A stretch of 28,815 nucleotides of DNA from a virus (IMGVR_UViG_3300033148_001611:1-28815); one strand, 5' to 3'. Shown: positions 6,770 through 24,066, numbered from the stretch's first letter. The notes: generated by a model not told the origin, from the letters alone. Program-made: numbers and translations.

Positions 6770-7082
6770 GCTATACTACCTCCTAGCACTCGCCGTCCTG
6801 TTCGCCGTGGTGCTGCCAGCGATAAACACGCACGCCGTAGCCAGGCACGCAAGCGACGCTATCACCGCGTATAACTTCGTGCGCGACAATGGTGGACCAG
6901 GCAACCGGCACGACTGCGAAGACGGGCGCACGCGCTGGATATGCGAGATGGGCGAAGGTCGTAATGGCAAAGAGTTATGCGCCGTGGTGGTGGTGGCTGG
7001 CGTGAGTTTGGTTACAAGTTTTATCTGTAGAAAACGATATGCAGAAAATATCGTGGAGGGGTGGGATAATGGCACTGACTAA
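6747..7082 (+). CDS. Membrane protein with two hydrophobic segments (111 aa)
   Basis: Start chosen at ATG 6747; an in-frame GTG at 6738 is possible. A hydrophobic helix at about residues 9-28 (LYYLLALAVLFAVVLPAINT) could be a signal anchor, the middle is polar with three cysteines (RHDCEDGRTRWICEMG, then ELC), and a second hydrophobic stretch (CAVVVVAGVSLVTSFIC) lies at about 78-94. The gene is GC-rich relative to its neighbours and overlaps both. No family is recognised. Confidence 0.6.
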   Translation: MTTTRNHRLYYLLALAVLFAVVLPAINTHAVARHASDAITAYNFVRDNGGPGNRHDCEDGRTRWICEMGEGRNGKELCAVVVVAGVSLVTSFICRKRYAENIVEGWDNGTD

Positions 7083-7971
7083 ACAAGAGAGAGTAAAGCG
7101 TGATGCCCTATTTGCACAGGGATTGAAGCAATGTTCTAAGTGTGGTGAGATAAAGCCGTTGGATACGTTTAGCAGGGACAGGAGGAAAAAAGACGGTCTG
7201 CAATCTCGCTGTAATGCCTGCAATCGTAATTACTATGAGATGCACAAAGAACAAATAGCAGCAAGACAATACCAATATGCTGCTATGCACAAAGAGCAAA
7301 TAGCAGCCAGAGGGCTTAAATATCGAATTACGAATAAAGAAAGGATAGACAGGCGAATACGTGAAAGAAGGGCGACGCCAGAGGGAAGAGCAGCACGCAA
7401 AGCCTCAAACGCCAGGTACGCTGCTGCACATAAAAAGGAAAAGTCCGCCTATGACCGTAAGTACCGTGTCGCGAACATAGAAAGGATTACAGCATATCGG
7501 CGAAAGTATAACGACGCAAACAAAGAAAAGTTAGTGGCACGCTCTCGGAAGCACTATGCGGAGCATAAACGAGAGAATGCAATGCAATGTCATGAGTACT
7601 ATGAGCTTAACAAAGAGGGCATAAAAAAGAGAGTAAAAAAATGGGCGATGGATAATCCGGAGAAGGTTAAATCATACTCAAGATTGAGACAACATAGAAT
7701 ACGAGCGGGCGGCTCAATTAGTACTGAAATATTGCAAGAGATCGAAGCCGCAAGCAATGGGATGTGTCCATACTGCGGAGAGCCTATCGTGGGAAGAGGG
7801 CACTATGACCACATCATACCAGTGAGCGCGGGTGTGAGCAATGGCGGGACCAATGACCGTGAAAACCTTGTCTATGTATGTGCTCATTGCAATTTGAGTA
7901 AGAACACTAAATCACTTGACGATTTTATGGCACACACTGGACGCCTGGCGCTCATACCAAAGACACCGTAA
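7069..7971 (+). CDS. HNH endonuclease with N-terminal zinc finger and repeated basic linker
   Basis: Start chosen at ATG 7069 after GGAGGGG, although 30 in-frame bases upstream are also open. The 300-aa product has a zinc finger at residues 22-51 (CSKC ... CNAC), a central lysine/arginine-rich region with degenerate repeats of the type HKEQIAAR, NKERIDRR, NIERITAYRR and NKEKLVARSRK, and a C-terminal HNH nuclease (CPYC at 233-236, HYDHIIP at 245-251, NDRENL at 262-267, CAHCN at 271-275). The DH of residues 247-248 is the expected catalytic core. It is the last plus-strand gene, immediately ahead of the terminator. Likely a homing endonuclease; the strand-specificity and target are unknown. Confidence 0.9.
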   Translation: MALTKQERVKRDALFAQGLKQCSKCGEIKPLDTFSRDRRKKDGLQSRCNACNRNYYEMHKEQIAARQYQYAAMHKEQIAARGLKYRITNKERIDRRIRERRATPEGRAARKASNARYAAAHKKEKSAYDRKYRVANIERITAYRRKYNDANKEKLVARSRKHYAEHKRENAMQCHEYYELNKEGIKKRVKKWAMDNPEKVKSYSRLRQHRIRAGGSISTEILQEIEAASNGMCPYCGEPIVGRGHYDHIIPVSAGVSNGGTNDRENLVYVCAHCNLSKNTKSLDDFMAHTGRLALIPKTP

Positions 7972-7985
7972 TACCACAACACACA

Positions 7986-8007
7986 AGCCCCCTCAAACGA
8001 GGGGGCT
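7986..8007. terminator. Intrinsic terminator between converging operons
   Basis: AGCCCCCTC (7986-7994) pairs perfectly with GAGGGGGCT (7999-8007) across an AAAC loop, followed on the plus strand by GTTCCTTTT. It ends the early operon, and the late operon converges from the right with its last stop at 8025. Confidence 0.85.
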
Positions 8008-8024
8008 GTTCCTTTTCGCCGAAG

Positions 8025-8582
8025 CTAACGCGGCGAATACTGATGTGCGATCCCGTGTAGTTCTGCGACAGCGCCCAAGGTATCAAGAGGATCGTTGCCG
8101 TCACGTTGTACCACGATGTGTATGCACATATCTGTTGCGGCAACATTAGCAGCAAGAATCTTGAATGGTGTATAAGTGATAACGAGACTATCTGCCGTTC
8201 CGTGACTTGTCACAAAGTCCTGCATAGTTGCACCGGCCTGTTCTGTGACCTCACCCACCGCTGATACAAGGTAGATCACTTCCCAATCACAGTTTAGTGA
8301 CTCCGCTGGACTTGACCATCCCAGACATATATAACTATCCTTGTCAGTATTCATATCATCAGGTATTTTTATGTTTGCTTGGATTTGTTCTTCTTGACCA
8401 TCAGCGAAGGACGCCACGACCCAGCCGTGATCATTCGTTGTAATGGTGGCAGCTTTCAACCCCGCAGCCCTCACAGCACTCACACTCATCCAAGCATATT
8501 TGGTCGTCAGTACGTGTTGAATCTCAGGCTTACGCTCGTCCAGCCTGCGTTCTATCCTGTTGACAATATCCATTATGCTCAT
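8025..8582 (-). CDS. Tail-end structural protein (185 aa), possible baseplate/adsorption component
   Basis: ATG overlaps the stop of the gp37-like gene (ATGA). The N-terminal helix (IMDIVNRIERRLDE) is followed by beta-rich sequence with LGWSSPAESLNCDWEV, an apparently compact domain, and ends with IHIVVQRDGNDPLDTLGA and AELHGIAHQYSPR. I recall similar proteins directly downstream of gp37-like genes in other phages, which supports a virion tail-tip role; no enzymatic motif is seen. Last gene of the late operon, stop 18 nt from the terminator stem. Confidence 0.6.
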   Translation of the reverse strand: MSIMDIVNRIERRLDERKPEIQHVLTTKYAWMSVSAVRAAGLKAATITTNDHGWVVASFADGQEEQIQANIKIPDDMNTDKDSYICLGWSSPAESLNCDWEVIYLVSAVGEVTEQAGATMQDFVTSHGTADSLVITYTPFKILAANVAATDMCIHIVVQRDGNDPLDTLGAVAELHGIAHQYSPR

Positions 8583-9718
8583 AGTCTATAATCCGCCTTT
8601 ACACTGAGCGTGTCTTTGCCGTCTTTCATCCCCACCGTGACGCTGTTAATCATTGCATCGAACTGGTCACCCCACGCTTTGACCGTCACCAGGTCACCGT
8701 AATTGTAGTCACGCCCATAGCGTAACTGCTTGGTGTCCACTATCGTGCCCTTGAAGTCAATGAGCCGCTGTGCTTCCATCAGCGCGGCATCCGCTTCATT
8801 CTGCAAACTATCATCATCCACGCTCGGCACGTCCTTAAACCCCTCGGACCGTGCCCACTGACTGCGGTTGTAGTCAGCTTCATTGTAAGCCTGCTCAATT
8901 TTACGGCTTGCTTCCTGTCCCTGCCCGCCGGCATAAATATAATTCATCGACTGAGAATAATCGTATGTGCCCTCAGCGTTTGTAATGCTGCTATTGGCAA
9001 TCGACAGTGTGATACTATCAGTGAGGTCTTGCCCTATCTGTGTGGTGAACGTGTTGAAGATAAAGTTGATGCTGTTCTCTAGTACCTCATTTGGTTGCAC
9101 CTCGAAGAATAGGTCAGTGCCAGCTTCGCGGCTGGCGTTGGCTATCTTCTTAAACGCCCCACCCCCAGCGAAGGTGAGCAGTTTTTGATACTCTAGGTCT
9201 AACGTCACGCTGGGCGCTTTCGTGTTTTTCTCGCCTATGGTCAGATCACCCCACGCCCTTGTCCCTGCTGTAGGCGTCGGATCATTCGCATCACTTAGCG
9301 CGTTAGTGAACAGCGTTTTGAGCATATCATCGGCCTCCTCAGTTAGCCGCGCCTCACTGCTGGCAGCGAATGCTGCAACTATGCGCCGGTACATCAGCAC
9401 ATTCATATCGTAACCGTAGAGATAGAATGCGCCGCGTGGCGTCGGGTTCGCTGTGCGCCTTGCCTTCAGTATCAGATACACGTTGAACAGGCTCATAGTC
9501 CCGCCTGGCGGTTTGCGCCACACCTGGAGCATATACTCACGCGGGTTTGCTACGGTGAAAAGGCGCTTGTCGAAGGTGTACGGTAGCTGTACCTGGACAG
9601 TGCCGATGGTGTTCACCTTACGCAACGCCTTGAAGCCATCACCCACTGGAATGAATGCGTTGGTCAACCGCGACCCGGTATCTGTCGTCAGTATCAGGTT
9701 GTACTTCGTTAACGCCAT
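8579..9718 (-). CDS. ReqiPepy6 gp37-like siphovirus tail protein (tail hub)
   Basis: The 379-aa product matches the pattern of the gp37-like/Tal N-terminal family: an N-terminal beta-rich half (KYNLILTTDTGSRLTNAF), and a diagnostic stretch around residue 266-295 that runs IYAGGQGQEASRKIEQ and YNRSQWARSEGFKD, then a C-terminal barrel ending LRYGRDYNYGDLVTVK. Such proteins form the tail hub downstream of Dit. It lies directly after the Dit-like gene and its stop overlaps the next start. Called with good confidence as a tail protein, with moderate confidence as to exact family name. Confidence 0.8.
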   Translation of the reverse strand: MALTKYNLILTTDTGSRLTNAFIPVGDGFKALRKVNTIGTVQVQLPYTFDKRLFTVANPREYMLQVWRKPPGGTMSLFNVYLILKARRTANPTPRGAFYLYGYDMNVLMYRRIVAAFAASSEARLTEEADDMLKTLFTNALSDANDPTPTAGTRAWGDLTIGEKNTKAPSVTLDLEYQKLLTFAGGGAFKKIANASREAGTDLFFEVQPNEVLENSINFIFNTFTTQIGQDLTDSITLSIANSSITNAEGTYDYSQSMNYIYAGGQGQEASRKIEQAYNEADYNRSQWARSEGFKDVPSVDDDSLQNEADAALMEAQRLIDFKGTIVDTKQLRYGRDYNYGDLVTVKAWGDQFDAMINSVTVGMKDGKDTLSVKADYRL

Positions 9719-14843: not shown

Positions 14844-14860
14844 CGGTTATTGTTTAACCG
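14844..14860 (-). other. Short hairpin at tail-tube stop / chaperone ribosome-binding site
   Basis: CGGTTA (14844-14849) pairs with TAACCG (14855-14860), five-base loop. On the minus strand it is immediately followed by AAAGGAC, the ribosome-binding site of the G gene. A similar arrangement occurs at 20400-20416. It may tune translation after the highly expressed tail tube gene. Confidence 0.45.
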
Positions 14861-15321
14861 TGTGCGGCATAGTCAAAGCCGCTCGTCGCTACGTGAAAAC
14901 TAAACGCCAGTGGTGTGCCGTCTGCTGCGTCAAAGTCGGGCATTGTCAAGCTATCCGGCTTTGCATCCGAGTTGGTTGTGATACAGAAACTAGCTGAGGC
15001 CGTCCCCTGCGGGCAGTATTGCACCATTAACCGACCGCCGCCTGCTGTTACATGCTGATCGTGAACAATTCCAACTAGGTCAGAAGCGTCACCGTCAGAA
15101 TACACGGCGTTGATAGTCATGCCTGTTAGGGTTAGCTTTCCAAACCCGGCGATAACTTCATCACCAACTAGCGTGTTGATCTGTCCAGTGGCCCTATCCC
15201 AACTGTCAAACGTGGCGCTTACTGCCCATCCCGATGCGTCTGTATAGGATGTCCCGGTTGTACCCGTGAAATAACCTATCCTTGCATCTTCACTACTTCC
15301 TGCATTCGCTGATTGTGCCAT
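14854..15321 (-). CDS. Major tail (tube) protein, copy 2
   Basis: The 155-aa product is beta-rich and has the same length as the adjacent upstream gene. About 107 of 155 positions are identical by my manual alignment, the most conserved block being ATFDSWDRATGQINTL and DEVIAGFGKLTLTGMT (residues about 36-69), plus QYCPQGTA and FSFHVATSGF. Such immunoglobulin-like/tube folds directly upstream of the chaperone are typical of siphovirus tail tubes. GAGGTGAT precedes ATG. The duplication suggests two tube-forming proteins or an end-cap variant. Confidence 0.8.
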   Translation of the reverse strand: MAQSANAGSSEDARIGYFTGTTGTSYTDASGWAVSATFDSWDRATGQINTLVGDEVIAGFGKLTLTGMTINAVYSDGDASDLVGIVHDQHVTAGGGRLMVQYCPQGTASASFCITTNSDAKPDSLTMPDFDAADGTPLAFSFHVATSGFDYAAHG

Positions 15322-15330
15322 ATATCACCT

Positions 15331-15798
15331 CTATCCGTGAGCCGCGTAGTTGAATCCAGACGTGGCTACATGGAAGCTGAAGGATAATACATCACCTGAT
15401 CCAGAATCAAAGTCTGGAAAGGTAAAGCTATCCATCTTGGCATCCGTGTTTGTTTCAATACAAAGTTTAGCCGCCGCTGTCCCTTGTGGGCAGTATTGAA
15501 GCATACATTGTGTGCCGCCTACGCCCACATGTGCACCAGCCAGCGCCTCAACTGCATCAGTCGTATCGCCATCCGAATACACTGCCGTCACGGTCATGCC
15601 TGTTAGGGTAAGTTTGCCAAACCCGGCAATGACCTCATCACCATCTAAGGTATTTATTTGTCCAGTTGCTCTGTCCCAACTGTCAAACGTTGCCGTGACA
15701 GCATAACCACTCATATCAACCCAGGTAGTACCTGCGTCTGTTAAGTCATAAGCTAACCTGGCGTCTTCACTACTTCCTGCGTGTGTTGATTGTGCCAT
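15331..15798 (-). CDS. Major tail (tube) protein, copy 1
   Basis: Paralogue of the following gene, 155 aa, starting MAQSTHAGSSEDAR. GGAGAAG precedes ATG. Divergence is concentrated at residues 15-30 and 78-98, probably surface loops, while the central block is nearly unchanged. The start overlaps the end of a glycosyltransferase gene by 29 bases, so the sugar-transfer enzyme and the tube protein are translated from the same message. It could be the modified virion protein; this is an inference from position. Confidence 0.85.
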   Translation of the reverse strand: MAQSTHAGSSEDARLAYDLTDAGTTWVDMSGYAVTATFDSWDRATGQINTLDGDEVIAGFGKLTLTGMTVTAVYSDGDTTDAVEALAGAHVGVGGTQCMLQYCPQGTAAAKLCIETNTDAKMDSFTFPDFDSGSGDVLSFSFHVATSGFNYAAHG

Positions 15799-16549
15799 TT
15801 TTCTTCTCCATCTTAAAGTTATGTCGTACCTTGTTCATATAAACGGTGCTCATCATAAAGTCCATCCCGGCGATGATATGACTACCGTTTAGGTGTCCAC
15901 TAATCACACTCATGTCTACGTATATCGGAAATCCTGCTTCACGTGCTTTGTTGCAGAAATAGTAGTCAGAACCAGTAGCCCCACTATCCGGCGCAGTGGT
16001 ACGCATAAATCTTGGCTCTTCTACAGCTTCCAATACACTTCGATGGATAAGCAGACAATGAGTGCCGCACCTATCCACCTCTATAAGCGACCCTTCCGGC
16101 GTTGAGGGTAGCATATACGCTTTGTCAGTATTCAACTGCCCATACTTACCAATCCATTCATACACCTTATTTACTTCAATCGATTGATACGGGTCAAAGT
16201 TCTCAGCGTCAAATTCTTCTAACTGAAACGCTGGTGTGACTAACTGCCGTCTTTTGAAACATAAAGCTGACACCATTGGAACATTTCGTGATAACAAGCG
16301 TGTTAGTGTCCCTTGCTCCAGCGTCGCATCACTGTCCAAAAATAACAGATAATCAATCCCCTTATCAACCACAGTCTGCGCTATCTCATTTCGTGCCCTT
16401 GAAATAGGCATAAACCGCTCGTGGTTGCCTTTCGGTATAAATATAGGTTCTTGCCTTGCGTTAAACGCATCATTGATTAGTGTGTGTGTTGCGTGTACTG
16501 TTCTCCAATCAAACAACCTCGAAATCGGTATGCCGATCGCTATACTCAA
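15770..16549 (-). CDS. Glycosyltransferase, GT-A fold (259 aa)
   Basis: Starts with TTG at 16549, five bases after AAGGA, overlapping the previous stop. N-terminal Rossmann-like part includes ISRARNEIAQTVVDKGIDYL, then LLFLDSDATL with a D-S-D metal/nucleotide-sugar motif at 72-74. A later segment CGTHCLLIHRSVL and GSDYYFCNKAREAGFPIYVD resembles phage-borne family 2-like transferases. It would transfer a sugar from a nucleotide donor; acceptor and sugar are unknown. It is cotranscribed between tail terminator and tail tube genes, suggesting modification of a tail or head protein. Confidence 0.8.
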   Translation of the reverse strand: MSIAIGIPISRLFDWRTVHATHTLINDAFNARQEPIFIPKGNHERFMPISRARNEIAQTVVDKGIDYLLFLDSDATLEQGTLTRLLSRNVPMVSALCFKRRQLVTPAFQLEEFDAENFDPYQSIEVNKVYEWIGKYGQLNTDKAYMLPSTPEGSLIEVDRCGTHCLLIHRSVLEAVEEPRFMRTTAPDSGATGSDYYFCNKAREAGFPIYVDMSVISGHLNGSHIIAGMDFMMSTVYMNKVRHNFKMEKKNGTINTRRK

Positions 16550-17205
16550 ATCAATCCTTCCTTTCTAAGCCACCAGCCGCAAAAGGTATCACGCTCATAA
16601 TAATGGAGTGGTGCGTGGCATAAGCCAACTCCGAGCTGCGGCATGTGCTTAATTCGCTTTCTTAATGCGGCACTTATCCAGTGTACATGTTCGCCGCGTC
16701 CAATCTCAAGGTTAACGTATATGTCCTCACCGCGTCCAATGTCATTGGCAGGAAAGCGCACCTTTCCAAGTGTCTTGCGGTGTATCGCTAAACATATCGC
16801 CTTGATATAATTCGTCTTGCCGTTTCTTGGTGCGTCGGTGTGCTTGTAGTATGGCGGTTCTTTGTGCACGTTACGACAGAACATACCCGTTATCGCTCTA
16901 GGGCGTTCCATCGCCAGCGTTATCAAGTCCTCTACTAGGTTGTCATCTGTCGGTATAACATCATCATCTTGAATGTATAACCAACCCTCATAGGCATACG
17001 CGACAAGCCAGCGGGCAAACGGCCCAATGTTGAACGGCATTTCCCATACCTCATCCGGTGTATCCTCTGGACAAGTTGGCGTATAACTTGCGCCGTTGTT
17101 AATCAATACAATATGCAAGTCAGCGGTTTGCCGTTTCAGCATCGGAATAATGTGATGTACATTAGGCTCTCGCTGATAGTTGAGCATTATTGCGGTAGCT
17201 TTCAA
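16546..17205 (-). CDS. Glycosyltransferase, GT2-like (219 aa)
   Basis: Start chosen at TTG 17205 (overlapping the previous TGA), five bases after AAGGGG, giving MKATAIMLNYQREPN; the longer open frame upstream lies inside the preceding gene. Residues 75-84 contain LYIQDDDVIP, a D-D-D metal-binding motif, and GRGEDIYVN is a probable acceptor/catalytic region. Together with the next gene it forms a pair of GT-A type enzymes. The protein ends CGWWLRKEGLI. Both have TTG starts coupled to stops, possibly for low-level expression. Confidence 0.8.
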   Translation of the reverse strand: MKATAIMLNYQREPNVHHIIPMLKRQTADLHIVLINNGASYTPTCPEDTPDEVWEMPFNIGPFARWLVAYAYEGWLYIQDDDVIPTDDNLVEDLITLAMERPRAITGMFCRNVHKEPPYYKHTDAPRNGKTNYIKAICLAIHRKTLGKVRFPANDIGRGEDIYVNLEIGRGEHVHWISAALRKRIKHMPQLGVGLCHAPLHYYERDTFCGWWLRKEGLI

Positions 17206-17639
17206 TTTAGCCCCTTTAGCGCAACTGGTATAGGCTCTACCCAATAAGGTTGCCCGCCCCATCCTTCTGGCGTTGCGTCTATGAAGCTGCGTTCTGTTAT
17301 CCGCAGATCGTCCCAGTTGTCGGTTGACCCATTAGCCTCAATGGTATCTGCTATAACTGTATAGCAATTATCCAGCGAGTCCTCAGCGTTAGGATCCGCG
17401 CGGGCAACAAAGACGAATATAGTAAAATAGTGCGTGTAGAACTTCCCGCCCAGCGTCCCGCCTGATACCCCAGATCCGCTTGATGCCAAGCAGACAAACG
17501 GTGATCGACCGTCAAATTCAGCGGCTTTTGGTAGGTGATCCGTGAACGTCTGCGCTGGTTTACCCGATCCCACTAATGCCGCTGCCAGCACAACGCCCAA
17601 GTCTTCGCGGTAGTCCTTTCTATCTGTGCGATTGCTCAT
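17202..17639 (-). CDS. Tail terminator-like protein (145 aa)
   Basis: AAGGA precedes ATG by eight bases. Sequence is alpha/beta with DLGVVLAAALVGSG, HYFTIFVFVARAD and SLDNCYTVIADTIEA, the profile of minor neck proteins that close the tail tube at the head side. No catalytic motif. Order (after HK97 gp10-like, before tail tube genes) supports the tail terminator role. Confidence in exact function is moderate. Confidence 0.6.
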   Translation of the reverse strand: MSNRTDRKDYREDLGVVLAAALVGSGKPAQTFTDHLPKAAEFDGRSPFVCLASSGSGVSGGTLGGKFYTHYFTIFVFVARADPNAEDSLDNCYTVIADTIEANGSTDNWDDLRITERSFIDATPEGWGGQPYWVEPIPVALKGLN

Positions 17640-18098
17640 CTATGGATTCCTTATCTCTCGTTGAATCATATCGGTCATATCTGACAAAATCTGCGGTCCT
17701 TGTTTCTGCATTGTATACGGGAATGACGCAAGTCGCGTGCCTCTATGCCTACCCGGTATAATGCCCCTTGCGTGCAAGTAAACGTCATACTCAGCAGGTC
17801 TAGTGTTAGAGCGTGGATTATAAGCGTTTGCACTGGTAAAAATCTGTGCTCTTGGAATGCCAGCATTAAATGTGATGCGCCTTGATGCTCTCAAAGCACC
17901 AGTATCCCAAGGCGTGTTTTTGGTCAACGCCCTATGAAAACGAGCAGCGCCCATCTGTACGGCTTGCCCTCTCACCCCCTCAGGCTTAAGTTTTGCAATG
18001 CGCCGCAAATTACGGCGCTGTGCGGCTTGAAGCCCCTGGATACTAAGACCTTGACCAGAGTAGTCTCTACCTGGCCCACCAAAGAAGTCAGTTGGCAT
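17640..18098 (-). CDS. HK97 gp10-like neck/tail completion protein (152 aa)
   Basis: AGGAGAG precedes ATG by four to five bases. The product has a basic N-terminal half (QRRNLRRIAKLKPE), then FHRALTKNTPWDTGALRAS, whose NTPWDTGALR matches the signature of HK97 gp10-like minor tail/neck proteins (TPVDTGALR). C-terminal part is beta/alpha with LASFPYTMQKQ. Role: joins head-closure to tail terminator. Its stop is directly followed by the next start. Confidence 0.75.
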   Translation of the reverse strand: MPTDFFGGPGRDYSGQGLSIQGLQAAQRRNLRRIAKLKPEGVRGQAVQMGAARFHRALTKNTPWDTGALRASRRITFNAGIPRAQIFTSANAYNPRSNTRPAEYDVYLHARGIIPGRHRGTRLASFPYTMQKQGPQILSDMTDMIQREIRNP

Positions 18099-18439
18099 TA
18101 CACTCTCCTGTTATCGAGAATGAGTCTAGCATAGTCTGTACCGTCGCTAATGAATGTTTGCAGCGTATCATACGGCGTCGCTGTTGGTATTTGGAACGTC
18201 AATTCAGGCTGCACCCTATCAATTGGTGTACATTTCAAGCCCGTTAGTTTCTCCGCCGGTGCGCCGCGTTTGCTGCTGGATACTGCCGGTGGGCGTTTTG
18301 TGCTGCAACTCACAGATGCTTGAAGCACAAATGACTTACTTATACCAAAGCCGTGCGCGGTCCAGTGTTCGATTGCCCTCACCGGGTATTCGGTGGAGCC
18401 AACCACTAGGAAGTCGCCAGCCAGTATGTCAAGAGCCAT
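18098..18439 (-). CDS. Head-closure-type connector protein (113 aa)
   Basis: Start chosen at ATG 18439 (overlapping the previous stop TAATG), giving MALDILAGDFLVVGSTEYPV; the upstream extension of the same frame overlaps the preceding gene. A small beta-barrel is suggested by the alternating pattern and by ISDGTDYARLILDNRR at the end. Size, composition and position between adaptor and gp10-like genes fit a head-closure protein. No motif is decisive. Confidence 0.6.
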   Translation of the reverse strand: MALDILAGDFLVVGSTEYPVRAIEHWTAHGFGISKSFVLQASVSCSTKRPPAVSSSKRGAPAEKLTGLKCTPIDRVQPELTFQIPTATPYDTLQTFISDGTDYARLILDNRRV

Positions 18440-18822
18440 TACACATCGTCCGCCGCAAGGTCGTCTGAGAAGCCGTCGACTCGTGTAACAAAGCCTATTG
18501 ACGAAAGTGCTGTCTGGTGTATGTTGTATTCCTTGTTCCACGCAGCACGGCGCTTATCCCAGGCATCAGCAATCGCCGCGTACTCCTCTTTGCGTGGTCC
18601 GACGGTGAGATTCGCATAGCTTGACCATTGCGCTGCTACTGCCGCCATTGCCGCGCTTACGGTCTTGTTGACCGTGCCGGTTAGTGTTTGCAATCCGCCA
18701 AGCTCATCATCTGTGAAGTTAAGCCCACTTGGGAGTACCCCAGAGTCTTCCACGGTATCACCAAGATGGAACCGCTCTACATCCAGGTCAGTTGCCAGGT
18801 CGCCATTATAAGTATATGTCAT
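18439..18822 (-). CDS. Head-tail adaptor (gp6/gp15-like connector, 127 aa)
   Basis: GGGGG lies about eight bases upstream of ATG. The product is mostly helical: DVERFHLGDTVEDSG, LNFTDDELGGL, and AAMAAVAAQWSSYA. The combination of a short beta start and DTxxxSGxLPSGxNFTDDEL is familiar from small phage connector proteins. It immediately follows the sulfotransferase gene and is followed by the head-closure gene. Inference of function is positional. Confidence 0.65.
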   Translation of the reverse strand: MTYTYNGDLATDLDVERFHLGDTVEDSGVLPSGLNFTDDELGGLQTLTGTVNKTVSAAMAAVAAQWSSYANLTVGPRKEEYAAIADAWDKRRAAWNKEYNIHQTALSSIGFVTRVDGFSDDLAADDV

Positions 18823-19665
18823 CTATAGCCCCCAGTCATTGTTCTGTTCGTAACCCAGTTTAACCAGCCATCCCGCTTTGTCCGTTTTCTTGAATGCCTT
18901 GACGTGCTTCTTTTTGAACACGTTACGCCAATCGCCAGCTATGCCTTTCCTGAATGTCTGACTCAACTCTGTGCGATAGCTTGTCTTGACCATTTCGCCT
19001 ACTGCGTTCTCAAATGCTTTATGGTCAATGCTCCAATTCAAGTCCAGCGCGTCATTGATGCGGTTGATCCCATAGAGCAGGATGCCGCGTGCTACCGCTT
19101 CTCTGTCTGCTATGGCATCCTCAAACTTGACGCTATGCACCCGCTCACAGTCAAGCCACGGTGCAAACATCTCCCACCGTTCCACGACGCCAGCAAATGC
19201 ACCGATCCCCTTGATAACCGCCATTAGCACATCGTCGAAATCGTCCATCAGCCGGTAGAACGCTTTGCTGATATGTTTCTGGCCAGCATCTTTGCTTATA
19301 ACGTGATAGGCGTGGCTAACAGCCACATCCCGCAAGTCCCGGTATATGAACACGTGTGACACTCCGCATTTGTCTATGAAGTCGTACACATCTTCGCGGT
19401 ATGCCGTATGTGAGCGGAAATACTGCCCTGGCTGCAAGCGGGCCATCCTGTAGAATTGCCCGCGCATTTCCTGCTCATTCTTGAACTCAGTGCACCAGAT
19501 ATTGAACAACGTGCCCCACCAATCTGGACGTGCACACAATGTGTTTACCGGCGAATCTGCCAGCGGTGCGACCATCAACGATATAAGGTGCAACCCCGAC
19601 TTAGGTAAACCGTTAAGCAGCCACTTGGGGCGTGCGTCCCCAGAGCGTACAGGCGCAAGTAGCAT
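18823..19665 (-). CDS. PAPS-dependent sulfotransferase (280 aa)
   Basis: The P-loop-like 5'-phosphosulfate motif is at residues 18-27 (NGLPKSGLHL), the 3'-phosphate motif at 106-118 (FIYRDLRDVAVSH, with R109 and S117 as expected PAPS ligands) and the third motif at 238-250 (FRKGIAGDWRNVF), all in the order and spacing of sulfotransferases. H86 in FRSHTAY is in the place of the catalytic base. It would move sulfate from PAPS to a hydroxyl or amine of an acceptor. The start ATG overlaps the preceding stop. It lies between capsid-associated and head-tail connector genes, so the acceptor is likely a virion glycan or protein; the acceptor is not known. Confidence 0.9.
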   Translation of the reverse strand: MLLAPVRSGDARPKWLLNGLPKSGLHLISLMVAPLADSPVNTLCARPDWWGTLFNIWCTEFKNEQEMRGQFYRMARLQPGQYFRSHTAYREDVYDFIDKCGVSHVFIYRDLRDVAVSHAYHVISKDAGQKHISKAFYRLMDDFDDVLMAVIKGIGAFAGVVERWEMFAPWLDCERVHSVKFEDAIADREAVARGILLYGINRINDALDLNWSIDHKAFENAVGEMVKTSYRTELSQTFRKGIAGDWRNVFKKKHVKAFKKTDKAGWLVKLGYEQNNDWGL

Positions 19666-20036
19666 TAGTTCACAATATAAACTGTGATTATACCATCGCC
19701 ACCGCTTCCGGCGCCACTGACTTCCAGCGTGAGTTTGGTATCATATGCGCTTCCCAGCCCATCCGCCGCCAATTGTAGATATTCCGTGACAGTTGCACTC
19801 CTATCCTCACCCGCACTATTCAGGAGGTCGTAATCGTCCTCATCCTGTATATCAAAGTCCCATAACGTTGTTGGTGCGGTGTCGCCAGGGTCAGAGATAA
19901 CGTAGTAGATAAGCCCCGTGTATGCGCTTACCGTTTCCCCTGTTGCTGTACCGTCTGTGTGGGCAGTAAACGCAAACTTTATTTTGGTAATACCCTTTTG
20001 CTCAGAATATGGGGTGATCGTTACAAGCTCAGTCAT
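19665..20036 (-). CDS. Virion-associated protein, beta-rich (123 aa)
   Basis: AGGAGGG precedes ATG. The product is beta-rich and acidic: VSAYTGLIYYVISDPGD, TTLWDFDIQDEDDYDLLN, DRSATVTEYLQLA, and GGDGIITVYIVN. I recall a similar pattern in small phage structural proteins of unknown role found near capsid genes. The stop overlaps the sulfotransferase start. No enzymatic motif. Confidence 0.6.
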   Translation of the reverse strand: MTELVTITPYSEQKGITKIKFAFTAHTDGTATGETVSAYTGLIYYVISDPGDTAPTTLWDFDIQDEDDYDLLNSAGEDRSATVTEYLQLAADGLGSAYDTKLTLEVSGAGSGGDGIITVYIVN

Positions 20037-20653: not shown

Positions 20654-23080
20654 TTATGCTAGAGAGTACAGCTTGATCTTGCGGATTTGCCCGCCCACTT
20701 TACACAACAAGTGTCCAGCTTCTCCGCCCGCATCAGTCCCGGCACCGGATTCCCATTGGGAGCCGCCGCCTGCACCGTCTGCGATTAAGAAGTATTCTCC
20801 AGTACCCCACAGATTGATGTAGGCTCCTACCTCAGTGTCACCGTTGTTGGTTGCTCTGTACATTGAGTAATCACCAAGAGACACAGCTTGATCCAGTTGT
20901 GTATCAGCCCAGAAGGAAGATAGGTGACTCACCTCTGTGTAAACGCCACCATCCACGATACATCCGCGCACGCCTGCGATTTGCAGACTGTCACCATTGC
21001 AAGTTCCTTCGTTTGTGAAGTAACCGGCTGCACCTTCCATAATTGGAGAGCCGCCCGTTGAAGTCGTGCCAGTCAGAATCCGCAGATAACCACGGATACC
21101 AGTAGCCTGCAAGGTCGTTGAACCTTGATAGCCGACTGCGTGATCGAAGTGCAACCCGGCGCTTCCGCCAGAGGTCGCCATGTTCTTAGACCAAACTACC
21201 CACAAACTACCAGACGACGCCATCGAAAGCCGCGTGCCTGCACTAGTTCCTACTGAGATAGCTTGACCATCAGCATAGGACATATTGAGTGGCCCACCGA
21301 AGTGCACACCACCAGCCGCCACATTCAACGCATAAGCTGCCGTGAGTGTCGCTGGTCCACTGCCTGCCCCGGTTGGAGCATCAGCGATGTAGACTGTCGA
21401 TGCCAAAGCAACTGTAACCGCGTCTTCATCTGTGATGGTTGGTTGCGCGATTGTCAACGCAACACCGTCCATAGCCGTCACGCCTGTTGAGCCCGTTAGG
21501 GTTGTAGTACCTGGGGTGATGCTTACTGTGTTTTTGGTCACACCACCAGCCGCTGTGATTGTCGCCGGTGCGCCAATAAAAGCCGCATTCGTGACAGCGG
21601 TAACAGTGTTCCTGGTATCGAATGCCAAGAGTTTTGTCGTTGAGTCATACACTTCCAACGCAGCCGCAGTGTTTGCGATAACGATGATGTCTGAGGCGTT
21701 AGTATTCAAGCCCAAGTCACCACCGATAAAAGCGTCAGCCGCTACACCCAACCCGCCAGCGGTTCGTAGTGAACCGGTGACATTTGTGGTTGATGCGGTT
21801 GTGCCCGCAACAGCGAGTTGTGTTGCAGTTCCCACCAGGAGTAAGTCATCAACCGACCCGTCCCAGTGCAGGTAGGTGGTTGCCGTAGTACCATAGACTC
21901 GAAAGTCTACAGAGTCCGTGCTTGCACCTAAAGTCAACGATCCATTTGTGTCGCCAGCTTCAGCCCACACAAAGTTTGAATTGGCATTGTCGCCATAGAA
22001 CGTGACGGTTTCACCTACACCGCTAGTACCTACGTTCAAAGTACCAGTTGTAAAGATTGCTCCCGCCACACCTAAACCACCTGCGGTATGGATTGAGCCA
22101 GTTGCCGCGGTAGTGGATACCGTAGTTCCTGCAACCCCTAACTGCGTGGCTGTTCCCACGAGTAGAAGGTCATCCGCTGACCCATCCCAGTGTAAGTACG
22201 TGGTAGCGGTCGCACCGAAAACTCGAAAGTCTACGCTGTCTGTAGTAGCTCCTAGTGTCAGCGAGCCGTTAGTATCACCAGCTTCAGCCCATACGAAGTT
22301 GGAGAGTGCGTTGTCACCGTAGAACGTGACGGTTTCACCTACGCCACTCGTACCAATGGAGAGCGGTTTTGTGAAGGTGAAGGATGCCGTCGCGGTTGAA
22401 AGCGGTATATAGCGTTTGGTTCCCCCAAGCGCCCCGGTTCCGATACGGATGGTGCTTGTATCTGTACCGAGTACCTTACCAGACGCGGCGGTGAATCCAG
22501 TGCCAAGAATCATGAAATCGCCATAGGTGTCAAACGTTCCCTTTGCTGTGCCGTTAGTGTTCGCATAGATGAAGCACGGTTTCGGTAAAGAACCGCTTGT
22601 TGCACCATAGGTCATTTCCAATTCAAGGGCTGCATACGTACCGCTGATGCTGGTCGTAGCCATCGTTAGTTCTGCACATATTGCAGAAAGCAGTCCAGTT
22701 ACGCCACCTGTCGTACCAAGATCGGCTGACGCTTTGAAGGCATTCGCCCAAGAGCCTAGTGTGACTTCTGTTGCCATATTGACTCTGAAGCGTCCGCCCA
22801 CTTGCCCCGCACCTGTTAGAACGTTGTTGAAGATTTGCGGTTCAAGACTTGTGCTGCCGTCTGTGGATGCACTTGTGGTGTAAACTGACATCACTTTCGT
22901 GCCGTTATAAGTAACGGCAGTAGGTGAGCCAGAAGTCCCACAAATGTATCCTTCTTCTGTGGTGATTGTTCCGCTTACGATCCAGTCTCCAGTAATGTCA
23001 ACCGTACCCGTTAAGTAAAAATCACCAACTACGATAAGATTGCCAGATAGTGTGAGAGCATCTAAATTAGTTACAGCCAT
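20654..23080 (-). CDS. Large repetitive virion protein, candidate capsid fibre/decoration
   Basis: AGGAG precedes ATG. The 808-aa product is glycine/threonine/alanine-rich, beta-rich and with no cysteine-rich or enzymatic motif. Residues about 243-350 are repeated at 351-458 with high identity (GTSGVGETVTFYGDN, NFVWAEAGDTNGSLTLGA, TTYLHWDGS, DDLLLVGTATQL, TAGGLGVA). The C-terminal domain (about 600-808) includes GLHFDHAVGYQGSTTL and EYFLIADGAGGG. It follows the major capsid gene, a position often used by decoration proteins or head fibres; it might be surface-exposed and be a substrate of the glycosyl/sulfotransferases. Function is not proven. Confidence 0.7.
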   Translation of the reverse strand: MAVTNLDALTLSGNLIVVGDFYLTGTVDITGDWIVSGTITTEEGYICGTSGSPTAVTYNGTKVMSVYTTSASTDGSTSLEPQIFNNVLTGAGQVGGRFRVNMATEVTLGSWANAFKASADLGTTGGVTGLLSAICAELTMATTSISGTYAALELEMTYGATSGSLPKPCFIYANTNGTAKGTFDTYGDFMILGTGFTAASGKVLGTDTSTIRIGTGALGGTKRYIPLSTATASFTFTKPLSIGTSGVGETVTFYGDNALSNFVWAEAGDTNGSLTLGATTDSVDFRVFGATATTYLHWDGSADDLLLVGTATQLGVAGTTVSTTAATGSIHTAGGLGVAGAIFTTGTLNVGTSGVGETVTFYGDNANSNFVWAEAGDTNGSLTLGASTDSVDFRVYGTTATTYLHWDGSVDDLLLVGTATQLAVAGTTASTTNVTGSLRTAGGLGVAADAFIGGDLGLNTNASDIIVIANTAAALEVYDSTTKLLAFDTRNTVTAVTNAAFIGAPATITAAGGVTKNTVSITPGTTTLTGSTGVTAMDGVALTIAQPTITDEDAVTVALASTVYIADAPTGAGSGPATLTAAYALNVAAGGVHFGGPLNMSYADGQAISVGTSAGTRLSMASSGSLWVVWSKNMATSGGSAGLHFDHAVGYQGSTTLQATGIRGYLRILTGTTSTGGSPIMEGAAGYFTNEGTCNGDSLQIAGVRGCIVDGGVYTEVSHLSSFWADTQLDQAVSLGDYSMYRATNNGDTEVGAYINLWGTGEYFLIADGAGGGSQWESGAGTDAGGEAGHLLCKVGGQIRKIKLYSLA
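21707..22354 (-). repeat. Tandem 324-bp internal duplication in the 808-aa gene
   Basis: Two in-frame copies, 22354-22031 and 22030-21707 (108 codons each), encode nearly the same sequence with scattered substitutions, including synonymous changes. Recombination between the copies could vary the length of the protein. Confidence 0.8.
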
Positions 23081-23142: not shown

Positions 23143-24066
23143 CTAATCGCCGCCAGTGCTACCGATTACCCACCGATAGTCACTCCAGCCGTATGAGTAG
23201 CGCATATAACCGCGCCAGCGTGCTTCCAGTTGGAATCCGCCGGTGGGGTCAATTGCAACTTCTTCCACAACACGGTCAAACCAGTTGAGGTATAGTTTCG
23301 CCAAATCCAAGTCGATTAGGAACCAGTTGGTTGAATCTGTGAGGTAGTCCCAAACGACGTAGTTCATACCCCTGTCCTGCAAGAGGTTCGCTTCATAGTT
23401 TGCAGTCCCGGGTTGCTGGCTGTTTGCACCGCGCATAGTTTTGATGATTTCATTTGCGGTGTTTTCCAGTTCTGGGGGAACGAGCAAGAGTCGTGGGCTA
23501 ACTTGGACAATTTCGCCCCTGTCATCCACGAATGCCCGCATTGCCTGCCGTGCAGCTACGATGTTATCGTAACTGAGCGCGGTTGCCAATGTGTTGGTCT
23601 GATGTGTGCCATTGACGGGTGAGTAGTCGTGGGTAGCACTGCATAATGCAACAGCATCATAGCCCGCCGTAGCCCCTGCGGTGAATGCGTTGTTGAACAC
23701 GCCTGCAGCGTGCTTTTCACGAGTCCGTGCTGCCGCCAGTGCAAAACCAAGAGGTCGTTTATTGATGATATTATACAGGTCATCATCATATAGTTTTCGT
23801 TCAACCTTGAAGCCGTCGATGTACTCTTTGTGTACGTATTCAACACGCCAGAGCATATCGGGGTCATCGAAATTGATAGTCCCTTTATACTCTTTCCAGT
23901 CCGCCATTCCACCGATGCCCAAGTCATATTCAACAGCCTTTGAGCTTGAGTTAACGGAGAATAACAGCGGGATCAAAGACGAAGCCGCCAGAGCGGTTCG
24001 TTGTACTTCATAAATGCGCCGTAGCCCTGGATCTAAAAGATAGGGCCAATTTTCCGATATAGCCAT
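23143..24066 (-). CDS. Major capsid protein, Mu gpT-like
   Basis: The 307-aa product fits the Mu-like major head subunit (gpT) family: NSSSKAVEYDLGIGGMADWK early, an E-loop-like region with NFDDPDMLWRVEYVHKEYID, a helix-containing middle (PLGFALAAARTREKHAAG) and a C-terminal domain with WRGYMRYSYGWSDYRW. This is an HK97-fold capsid protein. AAAGGGGGG lies seven bases before ATG. It follows decoration and scaffold genes as expected. No N-terminal propeptide cleavage site is obvious from sequence. Confidence 0.9.
   Translation of the reverse strand: MAISENWPYLLDPGLRRIYEVQRTALAASSLIPLLFSVNSSSKAVEYDLGIGGMADWKEYKGTINFDDPDMLWRVEYVHKEYIDGFKVERKLYDDDLYNIINKRPLGFALAAARTREKHAAGVFNNAFTAGATAGYDAVALCSATHDYSPVNGTHQTNTLATALSYDNIVAARQAMRAFVDDRGEIVQVSPRLLLVPPELENTANEIIKTMRGANSQQPGTANYEANLLQDRGMNYVVWDYLTDSTNWFLIDLDLAKLYLNWFDRVVEEVAIDPTGGFQLEARWRGYMRYSYGWSDYRWVIGSTGGD

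Follow-up and report, generated by a model that had tools for sequence, protein, structure and literature searches.

A predicted sulfotransferase and two predicted glycosyltransferases encoded among the structural genes of an uncultivated phage: candidate enzymes for decoration of the particle

The window, i.e., the whole stretch of DNA analysed here, is a virus record from IMG/VR comprising 28,815 bases, which may represent an incomplete genome. Between about 28.5 and 8 kb, its minus strand harbours a single run of structural genes (all features below are on this strand). The head part encodes, in this order, a Mu-F-like protein, a scaffold protein, a decoration-like protein, the major capsid protein (MCP, 23143..24066; Pfam Phage_capsid_4, 1.2e-12, and Mu-like_gpT, 3.5e-12), an 808-aa beta-repeat protein, small proteins and a predicted sulfotransferase (ST). 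The latter is followed by neck genes, two predicted glycosyltransferase (GT) genes, two paralogous 155-aa genes as well as genes for the tape measure and tail proteins. The open reading frames of ST, GT1 and GT2 are all intact within this one block, with ST positioned by the head genes and the two GTs by the tail genes.

Two proteins encoded between MCP and ST are candidate acceptors of a modification: (i) the Gly/Thr/Ser-rich 808-aa protein (20654..23080), the beta-repeats of which are apparent in its translation and which has no PHROG match, and (ii) a small beta protein (19665..20036) that is a distant member of c5, the family preceding ST in other records (c5 profile, E 0.0027; hhalign, 73 % probability, E 3.1e-5, 108 columns), and may be located on the capsid surface. 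The neck region comprises a protein encoded directly 3' of ST (18439..18822; 46 % identity to L002 13771-14151; phrog_1732, 0.0024), an HK97-gp10-like neck/tail-completion protein (17640..18098; Pfam 0.0017, just under the cut-off; phrog_5, 0.00098) and a tail-terminator-like protein (17202..17639), assigned by position alone and having no family match in Pfam or PHROG. Labels such as L002 denote related viral records or loci compared with the window. The paralogous 155-aa genes (15331..15798 and 14854..15321), which cluster together, are presumed tail-tube genes, the first by position and duplication and the second by position. The former has no Pfam or PHROG match and neither matches tail-tube profiles, such that tail-tube homology is not demonstrable for them.

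The ST gene (18823..19665) encodes an intact-looking protein of 280 aa, which by family, predicted fold and residues is a PAPS-type sulfotransferase with predicted catalytic activity. It matches Pfam Sulfotransfer_1 over the family cut-off (E 6.5e-12), and a structure model built with 24 phage relatives is confident (pLDDT 90.5) and displays the SULT fold. Among the PDB matches listed by Foldseek, SULT7A1 is the best (E 7e-9), and the best 50 are all sulfotransferases or SULT-fold enzymes (TM about 0.5-0.57). In an alignment of 25 sequences, the 5'-phosphosulfate (PAPS) loop PKSGxH, present in ST as LPKSGLHL, has invariant P21, K22 and G24, while the catalytic H86, the 3'-phosphate-binding R109/S117 and the RKGxxGxW motif (R239/G241/G244/W246) are invariant or nearly so. 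These active-site residues line up with their equivalents in human phenol sulfotransferase 1cjm.

Profile matches together with a DSD motif mark GT1 (15770..16549; 259 aa, TTG start) as a predicted GT-A type glycosyltransferase. The matches comprise phrog_1574 (4.7e-10), two PHROG glycosyltransferase families (1-2e-4), Pfam Anp1 (2.1e-4) and the Pfam GT2 family (0.05; not to be confused with the gene GT2), and across 8 aligned rows (GT1 and 7 relatives) the motif column stays acidic (DxD or EDD) with D74 being invariant. Relatives of GT1 in Microcystis phage Mel-JY34 and in MW202496 are encoded next to the MCP gene or one gene away. GT2 (16546..17262; 238 aa, or 219 aa if starting at TTG 17205) is probably likewise of the GT-A type, with weaker support than GT1: its DDD motif is suitably placed, a match to Pfam Glycos_transf_2 extends over 121 residues, albeit under the cut-off (0.006), and when about 1000 proteins were screened with a profile built from phage YxQDDDV proteins, GT2 alone scored significantly (E 5.8e-5). 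Considering these three observations, it is unlikely that GT2 is no glycosyltransferase and that the window encodes one GT only, even though its family matches are weak, neither a PHROG match nor a relative by tblastn was found, and its single-sequence structure model is poor (pLDDT 31.9). Of the two GT-A enzymes with DSD and DDD motifs in the initial annotation, the former is corroborated and the latter is probable.

Several of these genes are coupled by overlapping starts and stops, as had been proposed. The ATG of ST overlaps the stop codon of the upstream c5-like gene (TAATG at 19665), the TTG start of GT1 lies in a TTGA across the stop of GT2, and the first presumed tail-tube gene starts 29 nt inside the end of GT1. 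GT2 itself possibly starts at TTG 17205 (TTGA over the upstream stop) rather than at ATG 17262. The predicted placement of a sulfotransferase and glycosyltransferases in a structural operon holds, based on the single minus-strand block, the Pfam/PHROG matches and recurrence in divergent phages, and ST is indeed separated from GT2 by four genes upstream. The interval originally delimited as a cassette (16546-19665) includes ST and GT2, whereas GT1 lies outside. Likewise, the adjacency of the GTs to the two following genes is evident from the 29-nt overlap, whereas the tail-tube identity assigned to the latter is a matter of position and duplication.

Scanning IMG/VR with a degenerate DNA pattern of the active site yielded 50 stretches, most of them with clear ST homologues. 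At a threshold of at least 60 bits, the resulting set contains 43 sequences including that of the window, 37 of which remain after dereplication at 90 %. ST is one member of an extensive protein family of uncultivated phages. Searching viral contigs with exact peptide seeds from the single ST sequence, a strict procedure, retrieved only L001, and the same strict search with GT1 and GT2 retrieved nothing. ST was found neither in 50,697 phage records by tblastn nor in genome contigs by peptide seeds. Distant relatives of ST are located on Priestia plasmids.

A recognised structural gene is present at most three genes from ST in 25 of the 36 dereplicated clusters other than that of the window; no such neighbour was recognised in 11 of all 37 clusters, several of these being short or located at the end of a contig. 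Typically, portal and capsid, frequently followed by a beta-helix-like protein, precede c5 or c8, ST, head-tail adaptor (phrog_442, 2.3e-22), tail tube (phrog_9522) and tape measure, in this order. Contact or overlap of ST with the preceding gene is frequent; in L041, the nearest tree neighbour of the window ST (support 93/91), ST overlaps by one base the gene of a 758-aa protein whose linker is rich in Thr/Pro/Ser. Gly/Ala/Thr-rich beta-repeat proteins of 590-842 aa, comparable to the 808-aa protein of the window, adjoin ST in L015, L048, L058 and L038. A more distant ST group is located beside a radical-SAM protein and a GT (L034, L049, L061) or, in L033, beside a 1087-aa protein reading as fused GTs, which fits other roles. 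Identity correlations across loci are mixed (ST-MCP 0.49, ST-portal 0.70, ST-c5 0.09, ST-adaptor -0.02) and are not taken as proof.

Direct linkage of ST with GTs is observed in L018 and L040, where ST is immediately followed by two overlapping GT1-family genes; in L040, every junction overlaps from c5 through ST-GT-GT to the gene of a 181-aa beta-repeat protein. In L016/L025, a GT1-family gene overlaps c14, the gene in tail-tube position, as in the window. Overall, a GT1-family gene was detected in 4 of 47 records with ST as compared to 0 of 24 ST-less controls, which is not significant (Fisher p=0.29), many records being fragmentary. In a comparison of L018 with L040, the GTs share 91-95 % and the portal 90 % identity, as opposed to 58 % for MCP, 51 % for ST and 43 % for c5, suggesting that ST varies with the head block and not with the GTs. 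Since most ST records contain no detectable GT of this family and ST varies apart from the GTs, a fixed three-gene cassette is unsupported, and the initial annotation is not sustained in treating the three genes as one cassette. From these comparisons, ST looks matched to the head and the GTs appear separable from it; that ST and GTs make a common sulfated glycan is plausible.

As controls, 24 further contigs were recovered by a tail-tube motif scan; the same tail-tube family recurs in 23 of them, and in many so do the capsid and adaptor genes. ST and the GT1 family are both absent from all 24, some of which may be fragments. In L068, L081, L084 and L074, no gene separates c5 from the adaptor downstream of it, representing an empty site and marking ST as an accessory gene. 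The same slot is occupied in L064 and L067 by an MptE-like protein (215-237 aa), and in L027 ST is followed by such a protein; these putative transferases match PF01973 under the curated cut-off. This Pfam family also takes in flagellin-modifying Maf proteins. In L065, the capsid-adaptor interval contains a protein of the Pfam GT2 family (7e-12). The c26 proteins have no demonstrable relation to the MptE-like proteins and no informative family match, and are not claimed to be transferases. Tentatively, the capsid-to-adaptor interval could be regarded as a slot where ST, GT-A, MptE-like and GT2-family enzymes are gained or exchanged, thereby varying the chemistry of the particle surface, and might reflect a widespread, unrecognised phage system that adds sulfated glycans to capsid and tail.

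The location of the transferases within a structural module and its recurrence support a role in virion modification, and we propose with moderate confidence that they are accessory late enzymes for the post-translational decoration of the phage particle. ST would transfer sulfate from host PAPS to an acceptor on the capsid surface, with MCP, the c5-like protein and the 808-aa beta-repeat protein, or a glycan attached to any of these, as candidates; an acceptor site is not identifiable from sequence. GT1 and GT2, chained to the presumed tail-tube genes, would add sugars to a protein of the tail or of another part of the virion, and the glycan sulfated by ST may derive from them. Late expression, a virion acceptor and a shared product are inferred, as is the benefit, which would be masking, adhesion or stability.

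Position, gene coupling and accessory exchange fit enzymes acting on virion components during assembly. Decoration of the particle is favoured because of (i) fold and residues of ST, its proximity to structural genes (25/36) and its overlap with the upstream gene, (ii) empty sites in ST-less relatives and the presence of further putative transferases in the capsid-adaptor interval, (iii) the ST-GT-GT runs (L018, L040), the overlap of a GT gene with the gene in tail-tube position (L016/L025) and GT1 kin near MCP, and (iv) the precedent of mycobacteriophages, as far as described in PMC12619734 and PMC11256854. Counted against it are the frequent occurrence of ST without GTs, its variation with capsid genes, the 11/37 clusters devoid of a structural neighbour, and the distant ST group beside radical-SAM/GT or fused GTs.

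Several of the latter observations would also agree with ST and the GTs being independent accessory genes, ST sulfating either a glycan of host origin or, directly, a virion protein (e.g., at tyrosine), with glycosylation of the tail tube being a separate task of the GTs. This is a possible, if doubtful, explanation: detectable GTs are missing from most ST records, the window has ST by the head and the GTs by the tail genes, and ST varies apart from the GTs in L018/L040, but the direct adjacency and overlap of ST-GT-GT in these same two records as well as the recurrence of putative glycan enzymes in one capsid-adaptor interval argue against it.

Alternatively, the enzymes could be directed at the host, altering its surface polysaccharide or a small metabolite (e.g., to block superinfection), with the structural operon merely providing a convenient late promoter. 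Phage sulfotransferases are usually classed as auxiliary metabolic genes in the available text of PMC8290583 and PMC10829341, the closest fold matches of ST among those listed are cytosolic small-molecule SULTs, and GT fusions are encoded next to distant ST groups. Such a function is nevertheless improbable given that many divergent phages keep ST at a set place between the capsid and adaptor genes and that ST overlaps small capsid-region genes; very late expression would also be of little help to exclusion. Modification of phage DNA by glycosylated or sulfated bases has precedents in phage GTs acting on DNA (as described in PMC12619734) and in the nucleotide sulfation suggested in PMC10829341. 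It is very improbable here, given the placement in the head/tail block and that no base-modification gene was recognised among the genes scanned in the window, a possibly incomplete genome. Host-directed use and DNA modification are possible functions that fit the gene position less well than a role in the virion.

If decoration of the particle proves true, sulfated virion glycans would represent a surface chemistry new to phages, which could affect adsorption as well as the stability and recognition of the particle. With an ST family fixed at the capsid/neck junction, and at times in one overlapping run with two GTs, the function of phage sulfotransferases becomes directly testable on purified particles.

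Compared to known enzymes, ST shares the fold, PAPS loop, catalytic His and 3'-phosphate site with cytosolic sulfotransferases (SULT1/SULT7, sulfotransferase S4), but is only 11-18 % identical to them in the fold search and encoded in a phage structural block. A phrase search of the literature retrieved no treatment of phage or viral sulfotransferases beyond PMC8290583 and PMC10829341, which in their available text treat them as auxiliary metabolic genes, and PMC10580990. The accessible part of the latter reports sulfotransferases of cyanophages and OM43 phages, stating their function in phage genomes to be unclear; they are phage-encoded like ST but belong to Sulfotransfer_3 instead of Sulfotransfer_1, and a capsid-junction position is not described there. 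The phrog_1574 glycosyltransferase-like proteins of MW202496 and Mel-JY34, the above relatives of GT1 with genes near that of MCP, have no ST annotated nearby. The closest parallel to the proposed decoration is provided by mycobacteriophages, for which phage-encoded GTs, glycans on capsid and tail tube and a proposed shielding role are reported (Freeman et al. 2023, as described in PMC12619734 and PMC11256854). Phage-encoded GTs are common to both systems, while capsid or tail-tube acceptors are described there and proposed here. The available text of these two sources mentions no sulfotransferase and places the GTs of phage Maravista close to the genome's 3' end, in contrast to the window with its ST and with GTs inside the structural block. 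By position, the window displays a phage-encoded GT among structural genes, as in virion glycosylation systems, and its ST and GTs are regarded as a variation on virion-modification genes, not as a category in their own right.

In other virus contigs compared with the window, the interval between the capsid and head-tail adaptor genes, elsewhere occupied by the PAPS-type sulfotransferase (ST), contains or lies close to genes for MptE-like proteins (PF01973): L047:4006-4683 (2.9e-7), L076:8883-9617 (1.4e-4) and, with matches weaker than 1.4e-4 and below the curated Pfam cut-off, L064:2147-2806, L067:3293-4006 and L027:1865-2512. A role as glycan enzymes is possible. The same interval harbours proteins of family c26 (L065:5317-6231 and 7591-8766, L069:9664-10719, L083:8115-9230, L028:1610-2365), which immediately precede ST in L028 and L044 and carry a 'KLAIVGSGP'-like stretch at the N-terminus; Pfam gave no informative match for c26.

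Downstream of a distant ST subfamily (L034:12643-14607, L049:1788-4103, L061:9245-11557, L029:3-1446) comes a radical-SAM protein (L034: 2e-8) and then, if the contig extends so far, a GT2_4 glycosyltransferase (L049: 2.2e-14); the arrangement looks like a separate kind of modification cluster. In L033:5186-9165, L059:5130-9109 and L050:1-1699, ST adjoins a large protein (1087 aa in L033 and L059) which reads as a fusion of several glycosyltransferase domains; no structural genes were recognised beside this protein.

By sequence identity, L018 and L040 are a mosaic pair (portal 90 %, glycosyltransferases 91–95 %, capsid 58 %, ST 51 %, the small beta protein c5 preceding ST 43 %).

In the window, the block of plus-strand genes that faces the structural genes ends with a gene for an HNH endonuclease/endonuclease VII-like protein (7039-7971, plus strand; Pfam HNH 1.2e-12, phrog_1035 4.3e-29).

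Beta-repeat or fibre-like proteins with signal-peptide or lipobox-like starts are encoded in virion modules at L048:3217-5670, L002:11008-12267, L041:1590-3866 and L124:1791-3248. A 780-aa beta-repeat protein lies between two ST genes in L058:2704-7066. The L041 and L124 proteins additionally possess Thr/Pro-rich linkers, of a type which we take to be associated with Chloroflexota.
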